39,922 nucleotides of DNA. It comes from an uncultured Desulfosporosinus sp. GTDB taxonomy: Bacteria > Bacillota > Desulfitobacteriia > Desulfitobacteriales > Desulfitobacteriaceae. The notes under the pieces were generated by a model. That model was not told the DNA's origin. It saw only the letters and a program-made list of their open reading frames with translations, and ran no database searches. The position numbers were made by a program, and so were the translations under genes. The stretch is from positions 1 through 39,922 of the forward strand of contig CAKMJS010000142.1 in the NCBI GenBank assembly GCA_927405585.1, given 5' to 3'. Numbering within the stretch: the stretch's first letter is position 1; each line of letters opens with the position of its first letter. This document shows positions 22,276-31,273 of the stretch, one piece after another.

Positions 22276-22569
22276 ATGATGTTATTTTACCCTTATCCGA
22301 TTGGATCATTTTTGGTAGTCGGTGTCGATTCGAGTTTTTGGATTGGTCGTTTTGCTGGAATTCTAAATGGAGTTGCTATATTGACCAACGCTCAACTGTT
22401 TGCCAACATGGGAAAACCAATTGATGGAATCCGACCGGTAGTCCGAATCCCAATTAGAATGGTTACGTTTGTGGCGCTCAAAGATGGTAAAGACGGTAAG
22501 AATGACAATGACAAAAAGGATGAAAAGGACAACAAGGGCGATAAGGACAAGAACGCTAAACAATGCTAG
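22276..22569 (+). CDS. 97-aa small protein, paralogue of the gene at 30697
   Basis: The core is very similar to the 30697 product: VGVDSSFWIGRFAG, GVAILTNAQLFANMGKP and IDGIRPVVRIPI. A tail of about 28 residues follows, almost all Asp, Lys and Asn, ending in Cys. No signal or membrane helix is clear, although the core is hydrophobic. GGGG lies 8 bases before the start; the following ATG is an alternative. Promoter type, private leader and terminator suggest a spore-associated product, but the family is not recognised. Confidence 0.75.
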   Translation: MMLFYPYPIGSFLVVGVDSSFWIGRFAGILNGVAILTNAQLFANMGKPIDGIRPVVRIPIRMVTFVALKDGKDGKNDNDKKDEKDNKGDKDKNAKQC

Positions 22570-22591
22570 CGTTGGATGATGTACTATTGAG

Positions 22592-22626
22592 CAAGGGGTA
22601 GGATTTATTCCTACCCCTCGCCTTTA
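22592..22626 (+). terminator. terminator of gene 22276
   Basis: AGGGGTAGGA and TCCTACCCCT pair around a short AT loop, with a modest T-rich tail. The same stem is found after the paralogue at 30697. Confidence 0.75.
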
Positions 22627-22667
22627 TCAAAAGACTGCTAAAGATACTGCCATTCACGAAACTTGGA

Positions 22668-22695
22668 ACACTTTAAGAAACTTGTACATATCTTA
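22668..22695 (+). promoter_or_regulatory. sigma-K-like promoter of small gene at 22787
   Basis: AC, 17 bases, CATATCTTA. The preceding ACACTTTAAGAAAC is nearly repeated before the gene at 30697 (ACACTTTAAAAAAC). Confidence 0.5.
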
Positions 22696-22737
22696 TATAA
22701 ATAATAATCATCAGCGCCTTTTCCGTAACTTCTTCTT

Positions 22738-22766
22738 ATCTTATATCGCCACGATTGTGGTAGAAA
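22738..22766 (+). promoter_or_regulatory. conserved leader hairpin, copy B
   Basis: ATCTTATATCGCCACGATTGTGG is the same element as at 22228 and 30648; here CCAC and GTGG pair around GATT. It lies 25 bases before the ATG. Confidence 0.65.
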
Positions 22767-22786
22767 AATAAAAGGAGATCAGCCCT

Positions 22787-22999
22787 ATGATATCATTTGG
22801 AATAAATACCGGAAATCTCAGCCAGTATGTATCGGAAATTGAGTTGGGGATTATTATTATCTTATTTTCAGTGTTACTCGTTAATAATCTTAGTGATAGT
22901 AATAACAGTAATCCGAATACCAATACGAATTCTAATACTATTACTATTTCTACTAATGATGACAATGGCGATAACCAGAAGAAGTCAGCAACATGGTAA
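22787..22999 (+). CDS. 70-aa single-pass membrane protein with Asn-rich tail
   Basis: AAAGGAGAT precedes the ATG. The product has one hydrophobic helix (ELGIIIILFSVLLV, about residues 19-32) preceded by a short polar head. A 38-residue tail rich in Asn, Ser and Thr (NSNPNTNTNSNTITIS) follows. The helix resembles that of the 56-aa protein at 31353 (ETQLTIIIVLLSAFLF). Low-complexity Asn-rich tails are common in spore-coat/exosporium-type small proteins; function not known. Confidence 0.7.
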   Translation: MISFGINTGNLSQYVSEIELGIIIILFSVLLVNNLSDSNNSNPNTNTNSNTITISTNDDNGDNQKKSATW

Positions 23000-23010
23000 C
23001 GGCATCATAA

Positions 23011-23050
23011 GAAGGTTGGCCTAGGTATTTACGCCTAGGCCTTCTTCTTG
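23011..23050 (+). terminator. terminator, convergent
   Basis: AAGGTTGGCCTAGG and CCTAGGCCTTCTT pair around TATTTACG. It ends the 22787 gene and lies 30 bases past the stop of the convergent 55-aa gene, so it probably serves both. Confidence 0.8.
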
Positions 23051-23079
23051 GAGAAGATAAATGCACTATTGAAAAAGAG

Positions 23080-23247
23080 TTAAGGTATAGCGGGCTGCGT
23101 AATTATGCATCCAGCTAGGGCCTCACTGTTTTGAGATGGTACCCTAGTAAATGCCATTTCCTTTTGTAAGATAGAATTACTAAACGGAGGTTTTAATAGC
23201 CAATATAAGAAGCCAGCGCTGATGAATATAAAAGAGCCTACGAACAT
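23080..23247 (-). CDS. 55-aa small membrane protein (copy 1)
   Basis: GGAGGGAGG lies just before the ATG. The product begins MFVGSFIFISAGFLYWLLKP, one hydrophobic segment ended by a Lys-Pro, followed by a polar tail. It is a paralogue of the 35-aa protein at 23474 (shared G-S, I-S, LYWL, KP and NSI). A sigma-K-like promoter lies about 110 bases upstream. Function unknown; a single-pass spore or membrane peptide is the simplest reading. Confidence 0.7.
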   Translation of the reverse strand: MFVGSFIFISAGFLYWLLKPPFSNSILQKEMAFTRVPSQNSEALAGCIITQPAIP

Positions 23248-23355
23248 TTTTCCTCCCTCCTTTCATAAGAGTACAGGGAAACACAATTTAGTTCCATTAA
23301 CACCACCTAACTGTCACAATAATTCCATCTGCAAAATGAGTTGTAGTTTCTACTC

Positions 23356-23383
23356 TATAGTATGTATTTTGGGACAACTCGGT
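23356..23383 (-). promoter_or_regulatory. sigma-K-like promoter P1
   Basis: On the minus strand AC, 17 bases, CATACTATA. The whole block from TGCAC to the -10 (GAGTTGTC ... ATACATACTATA) recurs at 23616 and partly at 25822. Confidence 0.6.
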
Positions 23384-23432
23384 GCACTTCGAATAAGATG
23401 CTAATTGGCTCGTGAATTTTACTTGTTGCAAA

Positions 23433-23466
23433 ATAATATCCTCCCGCCTGAGCAGGAGGATATTAT
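23433..23466 (-). terminator. terminator of 35-aa gene
   Basis: ATAATATCCTCC and GGAGGATATTAT pair perfectly (12 bp) with a 10-base loop; TTTTG follows on the minus strand. It lies 8 bases past the 35-aa stop. Confidence 0.85.
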
Positions 23467-23473
23467 AAGTGTT

Positions 23474-23581
23474 TCAGGGAAATCTCGAATGACGATAGTC
23501 TATTGAATTATAGGGAACTTGAGGCTTCATCAACCAGTATAATAAGCAACCGCTAATGATTATTATAGAGCCAGCGACCAT
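23474..23581 (-). CDS. 35-aa small membrane protein (copy 2)
   Basis: GGGGGGGTG lies a few bases before the ATG, and a 12-bp stem terminator follows the stop, so this very short gene is supported at both ends. The peptide begins MVAGSIIIISGCLLYWLMKP and keeps the helix and KP boundary of its 55-aa neighbour but loses most of the tail. It lies between copy 1 and speD, each with its own promoter. Confidence 0.7.
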   Translation of the reverse strand: MVAGSIIIISGCLLYWLMKPQVPYNSIDYRHSRFP

Positions 23582-23615
23582 GTTTCACCCCCCCTTTCAC
23601 CACCCGATCTCAATT

Positions 23616-23643
23616 TATAGTATGTATTTTGAGACAACTCTGT
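23616..23643 (-). promoter_or_regulatory. sigma-K-like promoter P2
   Basis: AC, 17 bases, CATACTATA on the minus strand, in the same conserved block as P1; 35 bases upstream of the 35-aa gene. Confidence 0.6.
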
Positions 23644-23672
23644 GCATCACTTACTTTCAACCAACAGTTTAG

Positions 23673-23696
23673 ACATCTTCTTTCACAAGAAGATGT
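23673..23696 (-). terminator. hairpin at the end of speD
   Basis: ACATCTTCTT and AAGAAGATGT pair perfectly (10 bp, 4-base loop) and touch the speD stop. There is no clear T run on the minus strand, so termination is likely but weak. Confidence 0.55.
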
Positions 23697-24067
23697 TATT
23701 CCAAAATTTTAATATCACCTAAACCACGCAAGAGTTTTTTTACGTAGCATTGATCTGGTTTTAGTATGGCAAGGAATTTTGTAACAACATCACTGGGATC
23801 AACTTCTTCTCCACAAGTATAACAGTCAATTGCAACAAATCCTTTTTCGGGGTAAGTGTGGATTGAAAAGTGGCTTTCAGCTAACATCATAAGAATTGTT
23901 ACACCCTGTGGTTCAAATTTATAAGCTTTCACTGAAAGTATTGTCAGACAACACATTTTAGCGATTGCAACCATCCACTTTTGTAACAATTCTGCATCAT
24001 TAATAAGTTCGAAATTCATCCCCCAAATATCTGCAACTACATGTCTGCCATACGTTGAGAAATCCAA
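23696..24067 (-). CDS. speD: S-adenosylmethionine decarboxylase proenzyme
   Basis: Pyruvoyl enzyme that decarboxylates AdoMet to the aminopropyl donor of polyamine synthesis. At 123 aa it is the short bacterial/archaeal class 1b type. The self-cleavage site is Glu64-Ser65 in LAESHFSIHTYPE; His70 and Cys85 (DCYTCGE) are the processing and catalytic residues. It starts with TTG, eight bases after GGAGG. It is separated by terminators from both neighbours. A spermidine-synthase-like and a homospermidine-synthase-like gene lie within 6 kb, so the three may form one pathway. Confidence 0.95.
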   Translation of the reverse strand: MDFSTYGRHVVADIWGMNFELINDAELLQKWMVAIAKMCCLTILSVKAYKFEPQGVTILMMLAESHFSIHTYPEKGFVAIDCYTCGEEVDPSDVVTKFLAILKPDQCYVKKLLRGLGDIKILE

Positions 24068-24129
24068 TAAAAAAACCTCCTCAGCAATAGCTTCCCTCTA
24101 CCTTCTTACCACAAATTCAATAATTTCGT

Positions 24130-24161
24130 GAAAAACCTAGTCGAAATCGTCTAGGTTTTTC
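24130..24161 (-). terminator. terminator of the ArsB-like gene
   Basis: GAAAAACCTAG and CTAGGTTTTTC pair (11 bp) around a 10-base loop; on the minus strand the 3' arm ends in five T. It lies 11 bases past the transporter stop and upstream of speD. Confidence 0.85.
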
Positions 24162-24171
24162 ATGGACATGG

Positions 24172-25665
24172 TTAGAAAAATAGCCATTCTACCCAAAAAT
24201 AAAGGCTAAGCAAACTAATCAACAGACCTATGGGAATTACCATGAGAGTAACTTTCATGATTTCTGCCCATTGAACCCGAATCCCGTTTTTCCTGAGCAA
24301 AAATATCCAAATAAGGGTAGCTAAGGTCCCCATCGGAGTAATCAACGAACCAATATCGGCACCCATGATACTGGCCATATACGCTACTTGTAACGTGGCG
24401 GAATCTAACCCCATTTCCACCAAGGTAAAGGTCCCGATCATGACTGAGGGAAGATTATTAAATAAATTCGACATGACGGTAAGCAAACTGCCGCTAATTA
24501 GACAAGCACTCAAGTGACTGACTGATATGGGGTCTCGGAGTAGTTCAACTATCATTCCGGTTAGGCCAATATTATGAAGCCCGTATACAACAACATAAAT
24601 GCTAAAGGCAAACAGTATGATATGCCAAGGAGTTTTCTTAATAATATCGACGACTCCGACTCCCATTCTTCGCCACCGATACCCAATGAGCAGCAATGCC
24701 CCGAGGATACCAATTAGCTCAATAGGGATGTTCAGACTAGCTCCAATAAACAACCCCGCTCTAATCAGAGCGACAATAGCGATACAAACCTTAAACATGG
24801 ACTTTTCAATCACAGGTGTAGGAAGAGTAGGCTCCGTTCTTAAATGAGGAGTATTAACGTGCCGTAGATGTGGATGTGGGTGGTGATCTGGATGCAGATG
24901 TTGGTGTATAGGATGGTGTTGGTGATGAAGCGGGTGTCGGGGCAGAGGTGGGTGTGGATGATCATTCTTTGATACAGGGTCACTTATGAAAGACAAGGAT
25001 TGCTCAGAAATTTCTGAGTTAGGAAAAATTGCGATTCTTTTCGGGATTTCTTTGCGAAAGTAATAAAACAGTAGTAAGGAAATAGTTATAATTCCCACCA
25101 TCGAGGGAACAAACATCATGGACACATACGAATTTAAATCTAATCCCACAATTTTTAATGCAATTAGGTTTGCTAGGTTACTGACGGCGATCGGTGCACT
25201 TGAGGCGGTAGCGATCAAGGCTCCAGAAAGAAGATAAGGGAATTGTTGATGTGTTTTTAACTTTAAAAGCATGACAATATTAATAATAATGGGGGTAGTG
25301 ATTAGGATACTTCCGTCGTTGTTAAAAAAAATGGTCATTAGGAAGCAAAGCAACAAGATATACCAATAAAGCAAAACCCCAGAACCTTTAGCACGGTTCA
25401 CTAAGTTTTGGGCTGCCCAACGAAAAAAACCGATACTGTCAAGGACAATGGACATCACGATTGTTGATAAAATTGTAAGGGAAGCCCCGCTGACAATTCC
25501 TAGTATTTTAAACAAATCGCTCAAAGGAACGATTCCTGCGAGGAAAATGAAGACTGCACTAATAGTGGGAGGAATGGACTCGTTAATACCATGAGGTCTC
25601 CAAAGGAGAAAAAGCACCATTAATGAAAAAATGGTTAACGTAAAGAGGGTATTGAAATCAAACAT
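24172..25665 (-). CDS. ArsB/CitM-superfamily transporter with His-rich cytoplasmic loop
   Basis: A 497-aa protein with about 11-12 predicted membrane helices. Motifs of the arsenite/anion permease family are FFNNDGSILITTP (about residues 113-125), NLFNNLPS and GADIGSLITPMGTLATL. Between the two halves a loop (about 236-275) holds 16 histidines in about 40 residues, alternating with Pro, Leu and Asp; typical ArsB loops are not like this. The loop may bind Zn, Ni or Co, so the substrate may not be arsenite. The ATG follows GAGGGCGTGGCGGC. No arsR or arsA is near. A decayed copy lies upstream. Confidence 0.82.
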   Translation of the reverse strand: MFDFNTLFTLTIFSLMVLFLLWRPHGINESIPPTISAVFIFLAGIVPLSDLFKILGIVSGASLTILSTIVMSIVLDSIGFFRWAAQNLVNRAKGSGVLLYWYILLLCFLMTIFFNNDGSILITTPIIINIVMLLKLKTHQQFPYLLSGALIATASSAPIAVSNLANLIALKIVGLDLNSYVSMMFVPSMVGIITISLLLFYYFRKEIPKRIAIFPNSEISEQSLSFISDPVSKNDHPHPPLPRHPLHHQHHPIHQHLHPDHHPHPHLRHVNTPHLRTEPTLPTPVIEKSMFKVCIAIVALIRAGLFIGASLNIPIELIGILGALLLIGYRWRRMGVGVVDIIKKTPWHIILFAFSIYVVVYGLHNIGLTGMIVELLRDPISVSHLSACLISGSLLTVMSNLFNNLPSVMIGTFTLVEMGLDSATLQVAYMASIMGADIGSLITPMGTLATLIWIFLLRKNGIRVQWAEIMKVTLMVIPIGLLISLLSLYFWVEWLFF

Positions 25666-25684
25666 GCCGCCACGCCCTCGCTCT

Positions 25685-25729
25685 TTAATGAAGGTTCTCT
25701 TGAAATTTAAATTGTTCTTGAAATCCCAT
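25685..25729 (-). CDS. possible 14-aa leader peptide
   Basis: AAAGGAGG is followed 11 bases later by ATG and a short frame (MGFQEQFKFQENLH), ending 19 bases before the transporter start. It is enclosed by an inverted repeat. It may be a leader peptide that affects transporter translation, or chance. Confidence 0.35.
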   Translation of the reverse strand: MGFQEQFKFQENLH

Positions 25730-25761
25730 GAACTCTTTATCCTCCTTTACAGAAGAGAACC
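25693..25761 (-). repeat. inverted repeat enclosing the leader ribosome site
   Basis: GGTTCTCTT (25693-25701) and AAGAGAACC (25753-25761) are perfectly complementary, so a long loop would hold AAAGGAGG and most of the 14-aa frame. Confidence 0.4.
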
Positions 25762-25821
25762 GATAAGTCTAAAATCTGATCTTTTATGCTTATATTCATC
25801 TTAATTAGGTTTTACATAATT

Positions 25822-25849
25822 TATAGTATGTACGCAAGGACAACTCTGT
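25822..25849 (-). promoter_or_regulatory. sigma-K-like promoter P3
   Basis: AC, 17 bases, CATACTATA on the minus strand. TGCACAGAGTTGTC matches P2 exactly. It is about 157 bases upstream of the ArsB-like gene and would give it a long leader. Confidence 0.55.
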
Positions 25850-25887
25850 GCATTAAGGTAGCCACGGTTTGAGACATCTAAAAAGAA

Positions 25888-25915
25888 AAGCCTAGGCTAA
25901 ATTTAGCCTAAGCTT
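25888..25915 (-). terminator. hairpin after the transporter remnant
   Basis: AAGCCTAGGCTAAA and TTTAGCCTAAGCTT form a nearly perfect palindrome, at the same place relative to the remnant as the 24130 terminator is to the intact gene. Confidence 0.5.
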
Positions 25916-25923
25916 CACAAAAA

Positions 25924-26062
25924 TAGAGTTAGAAAAATAGCCACCCTACTCTAAAATATGGACTAAATAAACTGACGAGAAGCCCAATGGGAATTAATAT
26001 CCAGTCCCATTCCTCTCAGAGTTAAAGTTCCAATCATTACCGAGGGAAGATTATTAACCTCT
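25924..26062 (-). pseudogene. decayed fragment of the ArsB-like transporter gene
   Basis: Two blocks match the neighbouring transporter. About 25925-26005 resembles its last codons (GTTAGAAAAATAGCCA is shared), and about 26015-26057 resembles an internal stretch near 24420-24465 (GAGGGAAGATTATTAA is shared). Roughly 150 bases between the blocks are missing, and both blocks carry substitutions. This looks like a remnant of a tandem duplication. The rest of 25666-26172 holds promoter P3, the leader, and no other gene. Confidence 0.65.
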
Positions 26063-26172
26063 CGTCGGAATCCCAATTTCTAGGTGCGCAATTCTGCGAT
26101 TTTTATCATATACTTTTCTAAGAATTCAATCTCTATTGAGTGTGAAAATTAAAGCAAAGGACTGTTTGAATC

Positions 26173-26829
26173 TTGAGCAACCTTACATCTATAGTAATTA
26201 TTAACGTAACCGATGTATCCTCTAATGACTTTAAAGCCGTTATGGAAATGTATAAAAAGGAATTTCCCATTGAAGAACAAAAATCCTTTGAACAAATTGA
26301 AACCTTGCTATTGCGAAAAATCTATTCACTGTTTGTGGCAAGGCATAAGTATTTCGACCCGATAATTGGCTTTGCGTTTGTCATGTTTAATAGTGATCCG
26401 AAATTTATCTATTTGGACTATTTGGCAATTGATCCAATATTTCAGAGATGTGGGTTTGGTACCATAGTTTTTAATAGTATAGTTGAGATGCTAAAACCAA
26501 ACTCCATTGGTATCATGTTGGACTTTGAAATATCTGAGCTGGCCGAAAATGAACAAGAAAAATTAATAAGAGAAAAACGAAAACAATTCTATCTTCGCTT
26601 AGGTTGTCATGTGCTAAAAGATATTGATTATCGGCTACCTATTACTGATGGGAAATCCGTTCCTATGGTTTTAGCATTTAAACCAGGAGGGTCAATTCGG
26701 GTCCTTCCATCGGAAGTAGTTAAACAACTTATTGTTATCGCCTATGACAAAATTCACTCTGACGTCCTTGATAGGCATGAAGTATTTAAAAGTTATATGT
26801 CTAGCATCAACGATCAATATTTTCGCTAA
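26173..26829 (+). CDS. GNAT-family N-acetyltransferase
   Basis: A 218-aa protein with the acetyl-CoA-binding motif A of GNAT enzymes (YLAIDPIFQRCGFGTIVF, about residues 82-99) and supporting beta strands before and after; the C-terminal ~45 residues are extra to the fold. It starts with TTG at 26173, with AAAGGA about 12 bases upstream, so the start is uncertain. It is transcribed away from the ArsB-like gene and towards the homospermidine-synthase-like gene. Polyamine acetylation is possible from context, but nothing in the sequence proves the substrate. Confidence 0.8.
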   Translation: MSNLTSIVIINVTDVSSNDFKAVMEMYKKEFPIEEQKSFEQIETLLLRKIYSLFVARHKYFDPIIGFAFVMFNSDPKFIYLDYLAIDPIFQRCGFGTIVFNSIVEMLKPNSIGIMLDFEISELAENEQEKLIREKRKQFYLRLGCHVLKDIDYRLPITDGKSVPMVLAFKPGGSIRVLPSEVVKQLIVIAYDKIHSDVLDRHEVFKSYMSSINDQYFR

Positions 26830-26956
26830 GTATCTAAATAGTGTGGAATTTTCAAGATGAAAAGCCTTTTTTATTAAAATTACATAGAATGGCTTTTCGA
26901 TGACCAATATAAGATACTAATTTAGCAATATAATCTTCATTTGAACAAAATTAGTT

Positions 26957-26983
26957 TGACCCGACACGCTATGTATCGGGTCA
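26957..26983. terminator. convergent hairpin
   Basis: TGACCCGA and TCGGGTCA pair (8 bp) around 11 bases, 14 bases past the stop of the minus-strand gene at 26998. There is no good T run on either side. A longer-range pair GAAAAGCC/GGCTTTTC lies nearer the GNAT stop (about 26866-26900). Confidence 0.5.
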
Positions 26984-26997
26984 TTCCTAACTCTTAA

Positions 26998-28266
26998 TTA
27001 AGCTCCATATTGACATACCCTTTGAAGCAGACTTCCCTGCGAAGTATTATTTTCTCCTACCGAAAAATCTGTCAAATAATAACTCAGATATTCCCCATAG
27101 TTTGTGTGTGTTTTTAACAATAGTTCGTCTACATAATAAATCCCTTGGGGAAGATTATCTAACATAAGGGTTGAAATTGCAGCATATATTCCACATGCCA
27201 CTTGGAAATAAGTGGCATTGACCTTGTATTTGTTATAAACATCCATATTCTTTAAAACATTATACATGAACTTTTCTTTATCCTCATAGACAAGAAGTAC
27301 CCCTACTAAATCCTCACCTTCAAGTTCTTCAAGTGCAGGGTCAAGTACCTTCATATCCCACTGCCACAAATCATCAACATGGTCGAGATTTGATCGTATC
27401 AATTCTGTAGTATGGTCGTTTATTTTATAAATAAATCCAGTTTCCATATCAAATATTTTTCCAAGTGTGATTGCTTCTTCGTGCGCCATCAAGCAACCAG
27501 TAAAACTTATTTCTCCCAATGATACTTTAAATTTAATGTCAAATACTTTTTCGTATAGAAAAAGCGGCATTCGATGTTTTAGGAACATAGGATAGCCTGA
27601 TATTGCTTCATCTAGAAAACATTCCGGCGACCAGGTGGTATAAATGGTTTGTTTATCAGCTAATGAGTTGTCAGCGTAAAAGGAATTATCATGTTCAACT
27701 ATATAACACCCAATTGGATTTTCATCAGGATTTTGTTTAATCAGTTCTAATGCCATCCACTGAACAACGCCCGGATTCATTCCTGAGCAAATTATTGCTG
27801 TTGATCTTTTGAAATTATGCTTATGCTTCTCAAATACATTATACCTTTCGATTAAACCAAAGCCCTCAAATGATTCATCTTCATCGATCATGGTGTTTTC
27901 AAAGGCGGTATTAATATAATTAACGTTTAATTCATCGCAAATCCTTAATGTTGCGACAGTATCTGCGAATGAGCAATCAATTACAAGAGTTGTTTTAGTG
28001 TGTTTAAGATGTTCCTTAAACATTGCGGTGTTATTAATATCAAAACTATAAGTGTATAAGTTGTTTTGTAAATTAGGAAATAAATTCTTATAATAACCAA
28101 TTTCCCTTTGTTTTGAATCTATTAAGTGAAATTTCGAGTTAACAATACAGTCATGAATGGGATCTGTTTTATCTTGAGCAGATTTATTTAAGATAGATAA
28201 TATCGCCTTCGCCACCCCGCCAGCACTTCCAAGTACTGAAAAATTGATAAAGTGTTCATTGGCCAC
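26998..28266 (-). CDS. homospermidine synthase-like saccharopine dehydrogenase family protein
   Basis: A 422-aa NAD(P)-dependent enzyme. The N-terminal Rossmann segment is FSVLGSAGGVAKAIL (about residues 9-23). Family features are GMNPGVVQW (152-160), TTWSPECFLDEA (200-211) and AHEEAITLGK (251-260), similar in type to homospermidine synthase. Carboxy(nor)spermidine dehydrogenase belongs to the same superfamily and cannot be excluded. GTG at 28266 is chosen because GGAG lies 8 bases upstream; an ATG three codons earlier is too close. It shares a promoter cassette with the spermidine-synthase-like gene at 29343, which supports a polyamine role. Confidence 0.75.
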   Translation of the reverse strand: MANEHFINFSVLGSAGGVAKAILSILNKSAQDKTDPIHDCIVNSKFHLIDSKQREIGYYKNLFPNLQNNLYTYSFDINNTAMFKEHLKHTKTTLVIDCSFADTVATLRICDELNVNYINTAFENTMIDEDESFEGFGLIERYNVFEKHKHNFKRSTAIICSGMNPGVVQWMALELIKQNPDENPIGCYIVEHDNSFYADNSLADKQTIYTTWSPECFLDEAISGYPMFLKHRMPLFLYEKVFDIKFKVSLGEISFTGCLMAHEEAITLGKIFDMETGFIYKINDHTTELIRSNLDHVDDLWQWDMKVLDPALEELEGEDLVGVLLVYEDKEKFMYNVLKNMDVYNKYKVNATYFQVACGIYAAISTLMLDNLPQGIYYVDELLLKTHTNYGEYLSYYLTDFSVGENNTSQGSLLQRVCQYGA

Positions 28267-28268
28267 TT

Positions 28269-28304
28269 TCATCACTCCAATTATAGTTTGTACTATAACC
28301 TATG
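28269..28304 (-). repeat. 36-bp promoter/leader cassette, copy 1
   Basis: This block differs by one base from 30486-30521. On the minus strand it runs from CATAGG through the palindrome TTATAGTACAAACTATAA to GGAGTGATGA, so it carries a -10, a possible hairpin and the ribosome site of the 26998 gene. Confidence 0.85.
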
Positions 28305-28323
28305 TACAAGGCGCTTCAACTGT
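28296..28323 (-). promoter_or_regulatory. sigma-K-like promoter of the homospermidine-synthase-like gene
   Basis: AC, 17 bases, CATAGGTTA on the minus strand, about 30 bases before the start codon. Confidence 0.55.
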
Positions 28324-28542
28324 GAGGATAAGCCTATATTTAATCTACTCTTGCTCGACAGCTTACTTGGAGCGTATATGGGGGTTACCTCAGGATTAGC
28401 CATACCAAATTATGTTGTCAACATCCATCCACGAAATAGGATATGGGATGATCATTTAAATACAATTGCATGAGTTCTAGATTTCTCAAATATGTCAAAG
28501 GAGCAGGATTGATACCCATAAATATCATGTCAGTATATTGAT

Positions 28543-28610
28543 TAGGAAACCACATTGTTAATCTTATAAGGGAAAATATAAATAATTCAAATAGACTTGA
28601 TGGTTTCCTA
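28543..28610. repeat. 10-bp inverted repeat in a 540-base gap
   Basis: TAGGAAACCA and TGGTTTCCTA (perfect) lie 48 bases apart. Directly after, about 28632-28672, ATCGCAAAACTA and TAGTTTACGAT form another imperfect stem followed by CCTATTTT. The gap 28324-28864 has no gene I can support. A small RNA with a terminator is conceivable. Confidence 0.4.
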
Positions 28611-28798
28611 TAGATATAGTAGTAAAAAAGAGATATCGCAAAACTATCTATTGAAGTAGTTTACGATACCTATTTTGTGATTTATTAGGGAGTTCATACA
28701 TCTCTTAAGTGTGTGGATAAGCTGACTTATTGCATAAAAAAATCAACCCTTTAATTCCCATTGGTGCGTTGTTATATTTTGAAAATAATTAATAAACC

Positions 28799-28851
28799 CT
28801 GCGTCTGTACAATTCCATTCGGGCTTTGCCTCTTTCCGGTTTTAGACGCAG
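28799..28851. repeat. structured element downstream of the 46-aa gene
   Basis: CTGCGTCT and AGACGCAG close a 37-base interior that itself contains CGGGC..GCC and CCGG pairs. It lies 14 bases past the 46-aa stop on the minus strand. There is no clear T run, so it may be more than a terminator. It does not match a riboswitch class I recognise. Confidence 0.4.
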
Positions 28852-28864
28852 AATCTGAGCAGAA

Positions 28865-29005
28865 TTATTCCTTTATCAAGCCTCTGTTAACCAAAAACTC
28901 AACAACAAAAGGAAGCATAACTGCAATGAAGCTAGTAGTTGCCGAAATCAATTCCAGTTTTGAAACAACAGAATCAATTCCAGTTAATTCGTTGTCGTCT
29001 GACAT
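28865..29005 (-). CDS. 46-aa small protein, function unknown
   Basis: TAAGGAG lies about nine bases before the ATG. The product has an acidic head (MSDDNELTGIDS) and a moderately hydrophobic centre (about residues 22-40; ATTSFIAVMLPFVVEFLV) ending in a basic tail. Upstream (about 29050-29076) AC-N17-CATATTTTG fits the sigma-K pattern. Not recognised; a small membrane-associated sporulation product is a guess. Confidence 0.6.
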   Translation of the reverse strand: MSDDNELTGIDSVVSKLELISATTSFIAVMLPFVVEFLVNRGLIKE

Positions 29006-29183
29006 TTTTGCACACTCCTTATTTAATCTCCAAGGCTGGTACATTCATTGTTCTTTCTAATGTCAAAATATGTTAGACAAGGAACATTTGTCCATAAATT
29101 AGATAATTATTCGCAATGACCTTTAATGAGAAAAATTGTCTTAATTTTTGTAACTTTATTATTTGTTTAGCATATAATTTATA

Positions 29184-29250
29184 GAACCCGCCTTCATAAC
29201 GTATGTTCCAACTGATTCACATCATTGGTATACGCTATTGAGGCGGGTTC
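29184..29250. repeat. large GC-capped hairpin
   Basis: GAACCCGCC and GGCGGGTTC enclose further pairs (CGTAT/ATACG, CCAA/TTGG), giving a stem over 67 bases with TTTGTG on the plus side. It lies between the spermidine-synthase-like gene and the 46-aa gene, and may end transcription there or be a small RNA. Confidence 0.55.
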
Positions 29251-29278
29251 TTTGTGTAAAAGGTTTAGACATTATTTT

Positions 29279-29297
29279 GCCCCGCGTATTGCGGGGC
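29279..29297 (-). terminator. short GC hairpin after the spermidine-synthase-like gene
   Basis: GCCCCGC and GCGGGGC pair (7 bp, 5-base loop) about 45 bases past the stop. There is no clean T run. Confidence 0.45.
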
Positions 29298-29342
29298 TAG
29301 AATGGATTATTATCCTTTTCTTTATTTGCCAAATAAGATAAA

Positions 29343-30335
29343 TTAGCGTTCCCAGGATTCTTCTACAACATCTACCAGAAGGCTATTATAGTCTGTTTGT
29401 ACTTTTTTACTGTCCCATTCGCCTAATAAATAATAGGGGATACGCAACATATCCTGTAATCGCTCCTCATTCAAGTAACGGGTTGAAACCATAATTTTTA
29501 CATCGCTTGTGCAAATAGGCTTCTTTGCTGCCACACAGAATCCCCAGTCTTGTCCCCATTCGACGATAAAGTCAAAATGATAGGGCAAAGTATAAAAACT
29601 GGCTGCCTTGATCGTAGCCTGAACAGCCCAATAGTATGAAGGCATTTCAGAGGAAACAGAGCAGGCAACAGTTAGAATACCTCCTGGCTCCAAATGTTCA
29701 TTTAACAGGTTATAAAACTCTACACTGAAAAGACGAGCAAGTTCCGGGCACGTACCGGTTGGTTCCGGAAGATCAATAATGATGACATCCCACTTTTCTA
29801 ACGAGTTTTCCAAGAATATTCGCCCGTCCTCGATTATCGCACGAACTCTGGGATTATTCAGAGACCCCTTATTGAACGTTACAAAGGGTACGAAATTCTT
29901 GCCTAAGTCCATAATGGTGGAGTCAATATCGACTGCTGTAATCTCATTTACGTCCGGATAACGGAGAACTTCACGAGTTGAACCACCGCCACCCGAACCA
30001 ATAATAAGGACACGCTCCCGCTTTTGGGCAACGGCCATCGGCAGATGGATTAGTGCCTCTGCGTATTTGTCTTCACCTTCTGAAGTATTGAACATCTCGC
30101 TGCCATTTGCAAAAAGGGAGAATATTCCATCGCACTCTACCAAGGCTATCTTCTGCACGGAGTTTTTCATTTTTTTTATAACACGATATTCCCCATCCGG
30201 TTCCTCATCTTCCAAGATAAAATCATGAAGTGAACCTGCTCCCCAATATCGCCAGTACAACCAAATCAGGCTCTCAACAACTAATGCCGAACCTATTCCT
30301 AATCCAAATAATACGAATTTGTTCTGGTTAACCAT
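29343..30335 (-). CDS. spermidine synthase-like aminopropyltransferase with N-terminal membrane helix
   Basis: A 330-aa protein with one membrane helix (about residues 7-28) followed by a SpeE-type domain. Recognisable parts are GSEMFNTSEGEDKYAEALIH, the AdoMet loop LIIGSGGGGSTREVL (113-118; usual GGGDGG), AVDID at 134-138, EDGR at 159-162 and IIDLPEP at 186-192 (usual DSTDP; membrane forms often DLPDP). It therefore lacks the Asp of the glycine loop and has Glu191 for the second Asp, so activity or substrate may differ. The ATG follows GAGAGAGG. Most membrane aminopropyltransferases have several helices; this has one. Confidence 0.82.
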   Translation of the reverse strand: MVNQNKFVLFGLGIGSALVVESLIWLYWRYWGAGSLHDFILEDEEPDGEYRVIKKMKNSVQKIALVECDGIFSLFANGSEMFNTSEGEDKYAEALIHLPMAVAQKRERVLIIGSGGGGSTREVLRYPDVNEITAVDIDSTIMDLGKNFVPFVTFNKGSLNNPRVRAIIEDGRIFLENSLEKWDVIIIDLPEPTGTCPELARLFSVEFYNLLNEHLEPGGILTVACSVSSEMPSYYWAVQATIKAASFYTLPYHFDFIVEWGQDWGFCVAAKKPICTSDVKIMVSTRYLNEERLQDMLRIPYYLLGEWDSKKVQTDYNSLLVDVVEESWER

Positions 30336-30485
30336 GTTAATTTACCTCTCTCAATCAGTTTACTATTTTTTATGTTATGCAAATGTATGGTTTCGCGTGA
30401 TAATTATGAAACAACTGTAATTTATGTAAAATAATTTGGCAATTCTTCGTTCATTAAATCTTTTAAGAGCTTTGACTATGCACCC

Positions 30486-30521
30486 TCATCACTCCGATTA
30501 TAGTTTGTACTATAACCTATG
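30486..30521 (-). repeat. 36-bp promoter/leader cassette, copy 2
   Basis: One mismatch to 28269-28304, including the palindrome and GGAGTGATGA. Here the frame after the ribosome site stops after a few codons (about 30466-30490), so the start looks like a degenerate copy of the 26998 gene's beginning. Bases 30336-30485 to the next start hold nothing else clear. Confidence 0.8.
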
Positions 30522-30539
30522 AAAAAGGCCCTTAATCGT
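30513..30539 (-). promoter_or_regulatory. sigma-K-like promoter upstream of the spermidine-synthase-like gene
   Basis: AC, 16 bases, CATAGGTTA on the minus strand. The leader to 30335 would be about 170 bases. Confidence 0.5.
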
Positions 30540-30580
30540 GAGCCTTACATACATATTTAAAACAAGCTACCCAACTTGTC

Positions 30581-30607
30581 ACACTTTAAAAAACCGTACA
30601 TAACATG
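30581..30607 (+). promoter_or_regulatory. sigma-K-like promoter of gene 30697
   Basis: AC, 16 bases, CATAACATG; weaker -10 than the others but in the same ACACTTTAA context as the promoter at 22668. Confidence 0.4.
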
Positions 30608-30647
30608 AATTAGGTACAATCCCCCTTAGAGAATCTCGAATCTTCTC

Positions 30648-30674
30648 ATCTTATGTCGCCACGATTGTGGCAAA
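30648..30674 (+). promoter_or_regulatory. conserved leader hairpin, copy C
   Basis: ATCTTATGTCGCCACGATTG followed by TGGC, the same element as at 22228 and 22738. GCCAC pairs with GTGGC around GATT. It lies about 25 bases before the ATG. Confidence 0.65.
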
Positions 30675-30696
30675 TCAAAAAAGGGGGTCCAATCCT

Positions 30697-30930
30697 ATGT
30701 TATTTAGAAATTTAGGTTTCATCGGAGCATTATTTGACAGGTATCCAGTAGGAACGCGTTTAGGAATTGGGGTTGATGCAAGCTTCTGGGTGGGTCGTTT
30801 TGAGGGATTGCAGGATGGCGTTGCAATTCTAAGTAAGGCTCAATTATTTGCCAACATGGGTAAGCCCGTCGACGGAATTCGGCCGCTCGTTCGTATCCCA
30901 ATCTGCAAAATTACGTTTGTTTCAGAGTAA
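30697..30930 (+). CDS. 77-aa small protein, paralogue of the gene at 22276
   Basis: The ATG at 30697 follows GGGGG; an in-frame upstream start at 30667 lies inside the conserved leader hairpin and is rejected. The product shares GVDASFWVGRF, GVAILSKAQLFANMGKP and VDGIRPLVRIPI with the 97-aa protein but lacks its charged tail, ending CKITFVSE. The high identity of core, leader and terminator shows recent duplication. Function unknown; the family is not one I can name. Confidence 0.75.
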   Translation: MLFRNLGFIGALFDRYPVGTRLGIGVDASFWVGRFEGLQDGVAILSKAQLFANMGKPVDGIRPLVRIPICKITFVSE

Positions 30931-30939
30931 CAGCTGAAC

Positions 30940-30970
30940 AAGGGGTAGGATTTTTCCTACCCCTTGCTTT
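30940..30970 (+). terminator. terminator of gene 30697
   Basis: AAGGGGTAGGA and TCCTACCCCTT pair around three bases, then GCTTT. It is the same stem as after 22276. Confidence 0.8.
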
Positions 30971-30976
30971 CTGTCC

Positions 30977-31273
30977 AGAGACATATATCCCGGTGAAGAA
31001 ATAACCTGTGATTATGGAGTGATGGGTGATGATGAAGAGTTCGAATGTCTTCTAGAAGGAACCGCTCGAAGGAGTGTGAAAGCTGATGATTATTTGAATT
31101 GCTATCTTGAGTGGGATGAAATGGCCGAGGAGGCATTCAAAAGTTTCAATAGTGTTAACCAACCGCTTAAACATTTAATTAACAAAGAATTCGTCGACAA
31201 AGTAAGTGCAGTCGCGTGTGGATATGAGCCATTAGATTCTATTCTCACTACGTTTATATATGAGTCCGAATGA
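30977..31273 (+). pseudogene. 5'-truncated SET-domain protein fragment
   Basis: The frame from 30977 reads RDIYPGEEITCDYGV, the C-terminal motif of SET-domain proteins (normally followed by F.C.CG), then FECLLEGTARRSV and about 65 more residues to a stop. Everything 5' of this is missing: the frame closes at a stop inside the 30940 terminator. A GTG at 31019 could start an 84-aa product, but no ribosome site supports it. It looks like a remnant left by recombination at the terminator. Confidence 0.6.

Follow-up and report, generated by a model that had tools for sequence, protein, structure and literature searches.

A candidate sporulation-linked polyamine locus around a divergent gene resembling homospermidine synthase in an uncultured Desulfosporosinus

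Introduction

Do the polyamine genes that lie close together on a contig of an uncultured Desulfosporosinus constitute a pathway used during sporulation, or do they share only a place? The contig, C142 in a draft genome of 4.48 Mb (G000), is 39,922 nucleotides long and is referred to, at its full length, as the window. A first-pass annotation, made from its sequence alone, had pointed out a speD gene, a gene resembling homospermidine synthase (HSS), a SpeE-like (spermidine-synthase-like) gene with one helix, and a GNAT gene within 7 kb, and had suggested that together these could make and modify an unusual polyamine in the mother cell or spore. All four genes are present (Table 1), as judged with Pfam, NCBIfam, and profile comparison, the single apparent N-terminal helix of the SpeE-like protein being recognized by eye. 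The core of the set is the HSS-like gene. What is unexpected, as far as the sequences can be read, is a repeated tie of SpeD to the HSS-like enzyme, ending in fusions with an apparently dead SpeD part.

The HSS-like protein

Eight distinct members of the HSS-like family were compared, namely those of the window, of a Paradesulfitobacterium (locus L007), of a Peptococcaceae metagenome-assembled genome (MAG; L008), of a Niallia taxi megaplasmid (L011), and of loci L009, L057, L058, and L059. Pfam yields only saccharopine-dehydrogenase matches for the window protein, all of them sub-threshold. When a profile of the eight members is aligned by hhalign with five reference proteins, the match reaches a probability of 99.4 and an E-value of 5.5e-21, over 355 columns and at 20% identity; the references, retrieved with a fragment of the Blastochloris viridis HSS, comprise two annotated HSS and three saccharopine dehydrogenase C-terminal domain proteins. 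In the PDB, the best 13 rows found with the single sequence (phmmer) are all homospermidine synthases (best E 0.016), and so are the best 14 found with a four-member profile (Legionella 2PH5, E 0.00023), the lower rows being at chance level in both searches.

The catalytic residues of the B. viridis HSS are E117, N162, E210, W229, E237, H296, and E298 (PMC8489232). They correspond to E126, N167, E194, W215, E223, H265, and E267 of the window protein, and all seven are conserved in all eight members in a MAFFT alignment, the spacings of N162, E210, W229, and E237 having been counted manually in the HSS of Microvirga. In HSS, the amine is held by Glu210 and Trp229, and the carboxyspermidine dehydrogenase (CASDH) of B. 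fragilis has Asp140 at the position of HSS Asn162 (PMC10413350). This position is Asn in every member, versus the Phe139-Asp140-Pro141 of CASDH, whose residue is taken from the literature rather than from an alignment. Because of the profile match, the seven catalytic residues, and Asn in place of Asp, the protein is assigned as a divergent HSS-family enzyme with a predicted intact active site, rather than as a CASDH.

Distribution and genomic neighbourhood

Within the family, the HSS-like gene occurs in two of 45 genomes, i.e., its own and that of the Paradesulfitobacterium (G041), and it is absent from all 28 other genomes of the genus. Only its own genome was positive among 398 drawn from the phylum, while the order of Clostridium ganghwense has it in four of 225 genomes. 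The class of the Peptococcaceae MAG gives two positives in 81 genomes, neither of them the window's own; by their sizes, they overlap with the 45-genome family sample. A scan of genome contigs, covering close relatives only, returned three loci with the gene. Among plasmids, a single record in 72,556 contains it, the Niallia taxi megaplasmid (53% identity). Pattern scans of viral contigs yielded no HSS-like relative, and phages gave none either, their one match being at chance level (12% coverage, E 0.3).

The expectation that the annotated genes would cluster in related genomes holds in part: both L007 and L008 have SpeD, SpeE, or their remnants beside the HSS-like gene, and four SpeD-HSS fusions exist, but the seven other loci examined all lack the exact set of speD, HSS-like, SpeE-like, and GNAT genes. 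In L007, speD has the same orientation as the HSS-like gene and stops 103 bases before it; its end is overlapped by what is left of a SpeE N-terminus, 31 residues with 58% identity to the SpeE of L008, which extend into the gap. The L008 locus presents a full SpeE, then a 3' remnant of a window-type SpeE (72% identity, 119 residues) directly upstream of the HSS-like gene, and an ArsB-like gene after it. There is no SpeD near the HSS-like gene of L008, two being located elsewhere in that genome. ArsB-like homologues are linked to the HSS-like gene in the window, L007, and L008 (68-72% identity), and an intact SET-domain gene is found in L007, divergent to the speD/HSS-like genes, and in L011, divergent to the HSS-like gene; the window retains a remnant. 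The available flanks of L008 and L009 give no SET match, and L057-L059 were not searched for SET. As SpeD, SpeE remnants, ArsB-like, and SET genes recur in varying combinations, the window, L007, and L008 look like differently eroded versions of one locus.

Two details of these neighbours can be added. In the ArsB-like transporters of L007 (6159-7637) and L008 (11845-13323), as in that of the window, the ArsB profile match is interrupted by a His/Pro-rich loop of variable sequence and so falls into two parts. The divergent SET/HSS-like pair of L011 (9120-12852) has just downstream a 431-residue open reading frame (ORF), transposase-like by eye, which is a possible vehicle of transfer.

A GNAT recognized by Pfam is an immediate neighbour of the HSS-like gene in four of the eight loci (window, L009, L058, and L059), and GNATs make up four of the 16 genes directly flanking it; for at least 3 of 15, P is between 4e-4 and 3e-3 with an assumed GNAT frequency of 1-2%. 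The only clear homologues among these GNATs are the L058 and L059 copies (57%), and none of the other seven members has a clear homologue of the window GNAT next to it. Its involvement in a polyamine pathway is unproven.

Stand-alone and fused SpeD

The window speD product scores 123.2 bits with NCBIfam TIGR03330 (cut-off 75.65), and the pyruvoyl Ser, His68, Cys83 (T. maritima numbering), and the Pro of HT[WY]PE are all intact in both the window and L007 proteins. In the alignment, the same Ser, His, Cys, and Pro are found in the SpeD of phage S-PM2, a protein that restores spermidine in E. coli (PMC9992855). The window protein, one of three SpeD homologues in its genome, is read here as a probable S-adenosylmethionine (AdoMet) decarboxylase.

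Each of the four members from the order of C. ganghwense is encoded in one uninterrupted frame of 553-560 residues, in which a SpeD domain stands ahead of the HSS-like domain. The fused SpeD domains are recognized by Pfam AdoMet_dc (E 3e-29, 1.6e-16, 1.2e-17, and 1.9e-9). The pyruvoyl Ser is lost in all of them (A, C, C, and G), the His68 position in three (H, N, N, and K), and the Cys83 position in three (C, I, I, and L), and these parts can hardly be working decarboxylases; the frame nonetheless stays open. The loss of the pyruvoyl Ser, together with the SpeD-free Niallia plasmid, implies that decarboxylated AdoMet is not needed locally by every member. The C. ganghwense fusion exceeds the TIGR03330 cut-off at 102.9 bits and is named adenosylmethionine decarboxylase, a label that annotation pipelines may wrongly give to such SpeD-HSS fusions. 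No SpeD-HSS fusion is described among the literature matches listed, nor in the available part of PMC10407285.

SpeD has probably been joined to the HSS-like gene twice, independently. The firmer argument is that the fused domain of C. ganghwense is 58.6% identical to the SpeD of its own species, versus about 27% to the window SpeD. The weaker one comes from a first SpeD tree, in which the fused domains group with clostridial SpeD and a single clade of HSS-linked SpeDs is weakly rejected (p-AU 0.036, long branches). A SpeD tree that also included phage sequences left most branches unresolved and was set aside. A 625-residue open frame of genome G437 was rejected as a SpeD-HSS fusion, owing to a stop codon just before the HSS-like gene. 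In Bacillus phage vB_BcoS-136 (L070), a SpeD 45% identical to that of the window lies inside an annotated coding sequence of 1074 bases, and it may also be fused to something.

Promoters and a probable link with sporulation

Promoters were sought with the pattern AC-N15-18-CATANNNTA (-35 AC, -10 CATANNNTA), which is taken here as the sigma-K consensus. The window contains 12 such sites, versus 5.0 expected and a maximum of 10 in 100 shuffles; nine are upstream of genes of the island around the HSS-like gene and three are elsewhere. The excess is also seen in L007 (7 vs. 1.3 expected, maximum 6) and L008 (13 vs. 2.2, maximum 9). A site lies at most 300 bases upstream of eight of 12 island genes and of none of the 25 other window genes, a comparison biased by the recognition of some island genes after the sites had been seen and by the many controls located inside operons. 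Among the five main genes, three have a site: the HSS-like, SpeE-like, and ArsB-like genes. The first-pass annotation had given sigma-K-like promoters to two of its four genes.

Sites also precede the HSS-like gene in L008 and L011, the SET and ArsB-like genes in L007, and the SpeE remnant in L008, where the ArsB-like gene has one about 420 bases upstream; there is none upstream of the L011 SET gene. From the -10 element on, the distal SpeE-like promoter of the window is identical at 35 of 36 bases to the promoter and start region of the HSS-like gene, as if it had been copied from it. The link between cluster and sporulation is good at the level of sequence: it is carried by the enrichment upstream of island genes and by the recurrence at the HSS-like gene, and it does not extend to speD and the GNAT gene of the window, neither of which has a site within 300 bases upstream.

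In B. subtilis, a speE mutant is delayed in its entry into sporulation (PMC4703394), which means that polyamines matter to sporulation, but as an early effect. A perfect inverted repeat, TATAGT-ACAA-ACTATA, occurs identically at 28282-28297 and 30499-30514, just 3' of the predicted -10 elements of the HSS-like and SpeE-like genes, and is possibly an operator or an RNA hairpin.

Aminopropylation and diamine supply

The SpeE-like protein of the window passes no NCBIfam cut-off, the nearest model being PRK03612, matched in its C-terminal part with 203.5 bits vs. 472. The Asp of the GxGDGG motif is replaced by Gly and a later Asp (IDLPEP) is retained, both being presumably functional residues of aminopropyltransferases. 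In the L008 SpeE, the first of these is Asn, yet this protein passes the SpeE model TIGR00417. Matches to PF01564 stronger than 1e-50 occur in 40 of the 45 family genomes; in G000, the window protein alone matches (6.8e-32). In relatives, an arginine-decarboxylase (ADC)-like gene and SpeE stand side by side in all four loci viewed, with the same 292-residue gene nearby in three. None of these three genes was found in the G000 assembly, one of the searches having had no positive control. The view that the window SpeE-like protein replaced the normal spermidine synthase was not adopted: as the three genes are missing together, an assembly gap is just as likely.

The first-pass annotation had stated that no ornithine decarboxylase (ODC) or ADC accompanies the cluster, and none is found among the eight ORFs scanned in 22276-31273. 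In the genome, PF02784 has a single match, on another contig, which scores as LysA; PF01276 and PF01862 were not searched. The ADC-like query from relatives finds matches on other contigs only, the best at 33% identity. An agmatinase (C115) and an arginase are present, and putrescine could thus come from agmatine.

Proposed function and alternatives

The favoured reading, to which we give about even chances, is that of a horizontally spread accessory polyamine locus, transcribed in the late mother cell under sigma-K, with an HSS-type core making homospermidine or a relative. Of this, the sequences show the family, the active-site residues, the neighbourhood, the fusions, the absence of catalytic residues from the fused SpeD, and the promoter pattern; the use of sigma-K, the substrate and product, the history of transfer, and the location in the spore are inferred. 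The enzyme would bind NAD(H), oxidize the terminal amine of putrescine or a similar diamine, pass the aminobutyl group to a second amine, and then reduce the Schiff base to yield homospermidine or a close relative. An ancestral locus of the Desulfitobacteriaceae type would have had SpeD, at least one aminopropyltransferase gene, the ArsB-like transporter, and the SET-domain protein around the HSS-like gene, and each genome would since have trimmed it in its own way. Where SpeD and the aminopropyltransferase still work, an aminopropylated polyamine, e.g., N1-aminopropylhomospermidine, would be the likely extra product; Bacillota spermine synthases are able to add an aminopropyl group to homospermidine (PMC11107197, Table 5). 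In the order of C. ganghwense, the SpeD part would have become an HSS-fused domain without catalytic residues, which would have to play a structural or regulatory role there. The aminopropylation step is weaker than the HSS step and is probably not general, because of the altered SpeE motif and the apparently dead fused SpeD. The original proposal of a joint making and modifying of an unusual polyamine is supported only in part: the SpeD/SpeE-HSS linkage speaks for it, these two defects and the non-conserved GNAT against it.

Several observations weigh against this reading. On the enzyme side, the single-sequence matches to HSS are weak (E 0.016), the protein is just 20% identical to HSS and about 50 residues shorter, its H265-E266-E267 matches the His-Glu-Glu run 228-230 of CASDH, and the AlphaFold prediction with four homologues was too poor to be used (pLDDT 43.8). 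On the side of its partners, the pyruvoyl Ser is gone from every fused SpeD domain, the Niallia plasmid has no SpeD at all (the chromosome was not searched), both local SpeE proteins inspected (window and L008) lack the GxGDGG Asp, and the window speD lies 2.9 kb from the HSS-like gene, behind a hairpin that looks terminator-like by eye. Sigma-K-like sites are missing not only from speD and the GNAT gene of the window, but also from all four fusions and from the L007 speD. As for composition, the HSS-like, GNAT, and speD genes have a G+C content of 34-36%, versus 41.7% for the window, but the SpeE-like (0.43) and ArsB-like (0.41) genes are not low, so that composition speaks for the recent acquisition of only part of the cluster.

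The genes might also be mere hitchhikers in a late-sporulation island of coat-like proteins, membrane peptides, and acquired genes, sharing place and sigma-K control without forming a pathway. Each locus has its own gene order and content, several genes are reduced to remnants, small coat-like proteins lie in between in the window, L007, and L008, the window GNAT is unmatched beside other members, and the local SpeE proteins lack a conserved Asp. Nevertheless, SpeD, SpeE, or remnants adjoin HSS in L007 and L008, a probably independent event has fused SpeD to HSS in a different order (four genomes), and such repeated pairing is not expected of hitchhikers, which makes this account unlikely. A deoxyhypusine-like transfer of the aminobutyl group to a lysine of a spore protein, whose lysines the SET protein would modify as well, is extremely improbable: the SET gene is a divergent neighbour in L007 and L011 (and a remnant in the window) and some small island proteins have Lys-rich tails, but no target is known, the available L008 and L009 flanks hold no SET match, and no HSS of this fold is known to act on proteins.

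Two further accounts change the chemistry of one partner. It is distinctly improbable that the window SpeD is a neofunctionalized pyruvoyl ODC or ADC feeding putrescine or agmatine to the HSS-like enzyme. SpeD homologues of this kind occur in hss clusters and in two-SpeD genomes without canonical ODC/ADC, the pyruvoyl ODC (SpeDC) having four diagnostic residues, Gln, Thr, Phe, and Tyr (PMC10407285), and the genome with its three SpeD homologues shows no clear ODC (within the searches given above). The window SpeD, however, is well over the TIGR03330 cut-off and has the Pro of HT[WY]PE, where an ADC-like pelagiphage homologue has Asp (the diagnostic value of the Pro and the identity of the phage ADC are themselves inferred). 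It is very unlikely that the HSS-like enzyme is a CASDH-type or other reductive aminase, joining an aldehyde (e.g., aspartate semialdehyde) to a diamine. CASDH and HSS have the same fold, and the family has the His-Glu-Glu run that is central to CASDH (PMC10413350), but the GxNPG residue is Asn and not Asp, Trp215 and Glu194 (counterparts of the amine-holding residues of HSS) are invariant, no CASDC-type gene is seen beside the HSS-like gene, the sole genomic PF02784 match being the LysA one, and the PDB searches return HSS but no CASDH.

The sporulation-linked homospermidine locus favoured here also admits a bolder form, which we regard as doubtful: a developmental class of HSS with a non-catalytic partner of the SpeD fold, which would be a dead, fused domain in the order of C. 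ganghwense and, in the window's family, a separate subunit that looks intact. The role of this partner would be either to sense polyamine or AdoMet or to bring about assembly of the enzyme, thereby restricting the synthesis of a homospermidine-type amine for the spore to the late mother cell.

Comparison with known systems

The known bacterial HSS (B. viridis 4PLP/4TVB, P. aeruginosa 6Y87, and Legionella 2PH5) share with the HSS-like protein the order of Rossmann and HSS domains, GxNPG, the cation-pi Trp, the Glu-His-Glu triad, the inner-site Glu, and NATxxQV. Besides its low identity (20%), the HSS-like protein differs from them in its length (about 425 vs. about 478 residues), a longer N-terminal Rossmann part, the sigma-K-like promoter, and the SpeD partner or fusion. 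No HSS is known to have been tied to endospore formation, a negative that covers 10 of 984 literature matches. A sigma-K-linked HSS, if true, would offer a testable route to a spore-stage polyamine.

A SpeD homologue also stands beside the HSS gene in the clusters with pyruvoyl ODC (SpeDC) of Li et al. 2023 (PMC10407285), whereas the window SpeD is AdoMet-decarboxylase-like and SpeD is fused and Ser-less in the order of C. ganghwense. The prozyme of trypanosome AdoMet decarboxylase is likewise a catalytically dead homologue kept by selection (PMC5201418, PMC6221367), but it activates AdoMet decarboxylase, while the dead SpeD domain here is fused to HSS. If true, this fusion would provide an independent second example of a dead AdoMet decarboxylase maintained by selection, here on another enzyme. 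SpeD is fused to other polyamine enzymes in the Pelagibacter SpeD-SpeE (PMC11107197) and the SpeD-SpeDC (PMC10407285) fusions, in which, in contrast, SpeD is functional and the partner is not HSS. The spermidine/spermine synthases of Desulfosporosinus orientis (PMC11107197) belong to the same aminopropyltransferase superfamily as the SpeE-like protein, which forms a separate lineage, nearest to PRK03612, with an altered GxGDGG motif.

Other features of the window

Table 1. Genes and sigma-K-like sites of the locus, in window coordinates
Feature	Position	Strand	Remarks
speD	23696-24067	-	123 aa; class-1b S-adenosylmethionine decarboxylase homologue; Pfam AdoMet_dc E 1.2e-32
ArsB/CitM-type (ArsB-like) transporter	24172-25665	-	His/Pro-rich loop; inside the interval, missing from the first-pass list
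sigma-K-like site of ArsB-like gene	25822-25849	-	pattern scan
GNAT-fold acetyltransferase	26173-26829	+	Pfam 26.1 bits vs. cut-off 20.7; convergent with HSS-like gene
HSS-like gene (module core)	26998-28275	-	425 aa; putative divergent homospermidine synthase (HSS) family enzyme
sigma-K-like site of HSS-like gene	28296-28323	-	CACA-N16-CATAGGTTA
SpeE-like (aminopropyltransferase-like) gene	29343-30335	-	330 aa; Pfam Spermine_synth 8e-32
proximal sigma-K-like site of SpeE-like gene	30371-30398	-	pattern scan
distal sigma-K-like site of SpeE-like gene	30513-30539	-	pattern scan
SET-domain gene	30974-31273	+	truncated C-terminal remnant; 79% identity over 100 residues to L007 copy; also missing from the first-pass list

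The HSS-like gene may start at a GTG a few codons downstream of the annotated start (by eye). Small paralogous proteins flank the module (22276-22569 and 30667-30930), with several copies in L007 and L008; the label "coat-like" used for them is a guess based on context. Two small membrane peptides (23474-23581 and 23080-23247, both on the minus strand) have the common motif IS...LY.L.KP and are KdpF-type-like; sigma-K-like sites lie upstream of their genes in the window, and relatives are found upstream of ArsB in L007 and L008. Next to the GNAT gene, at 25999-26055, a 19-residue ArsB-like remnant (84% identity) is a sign of duplication and decay.

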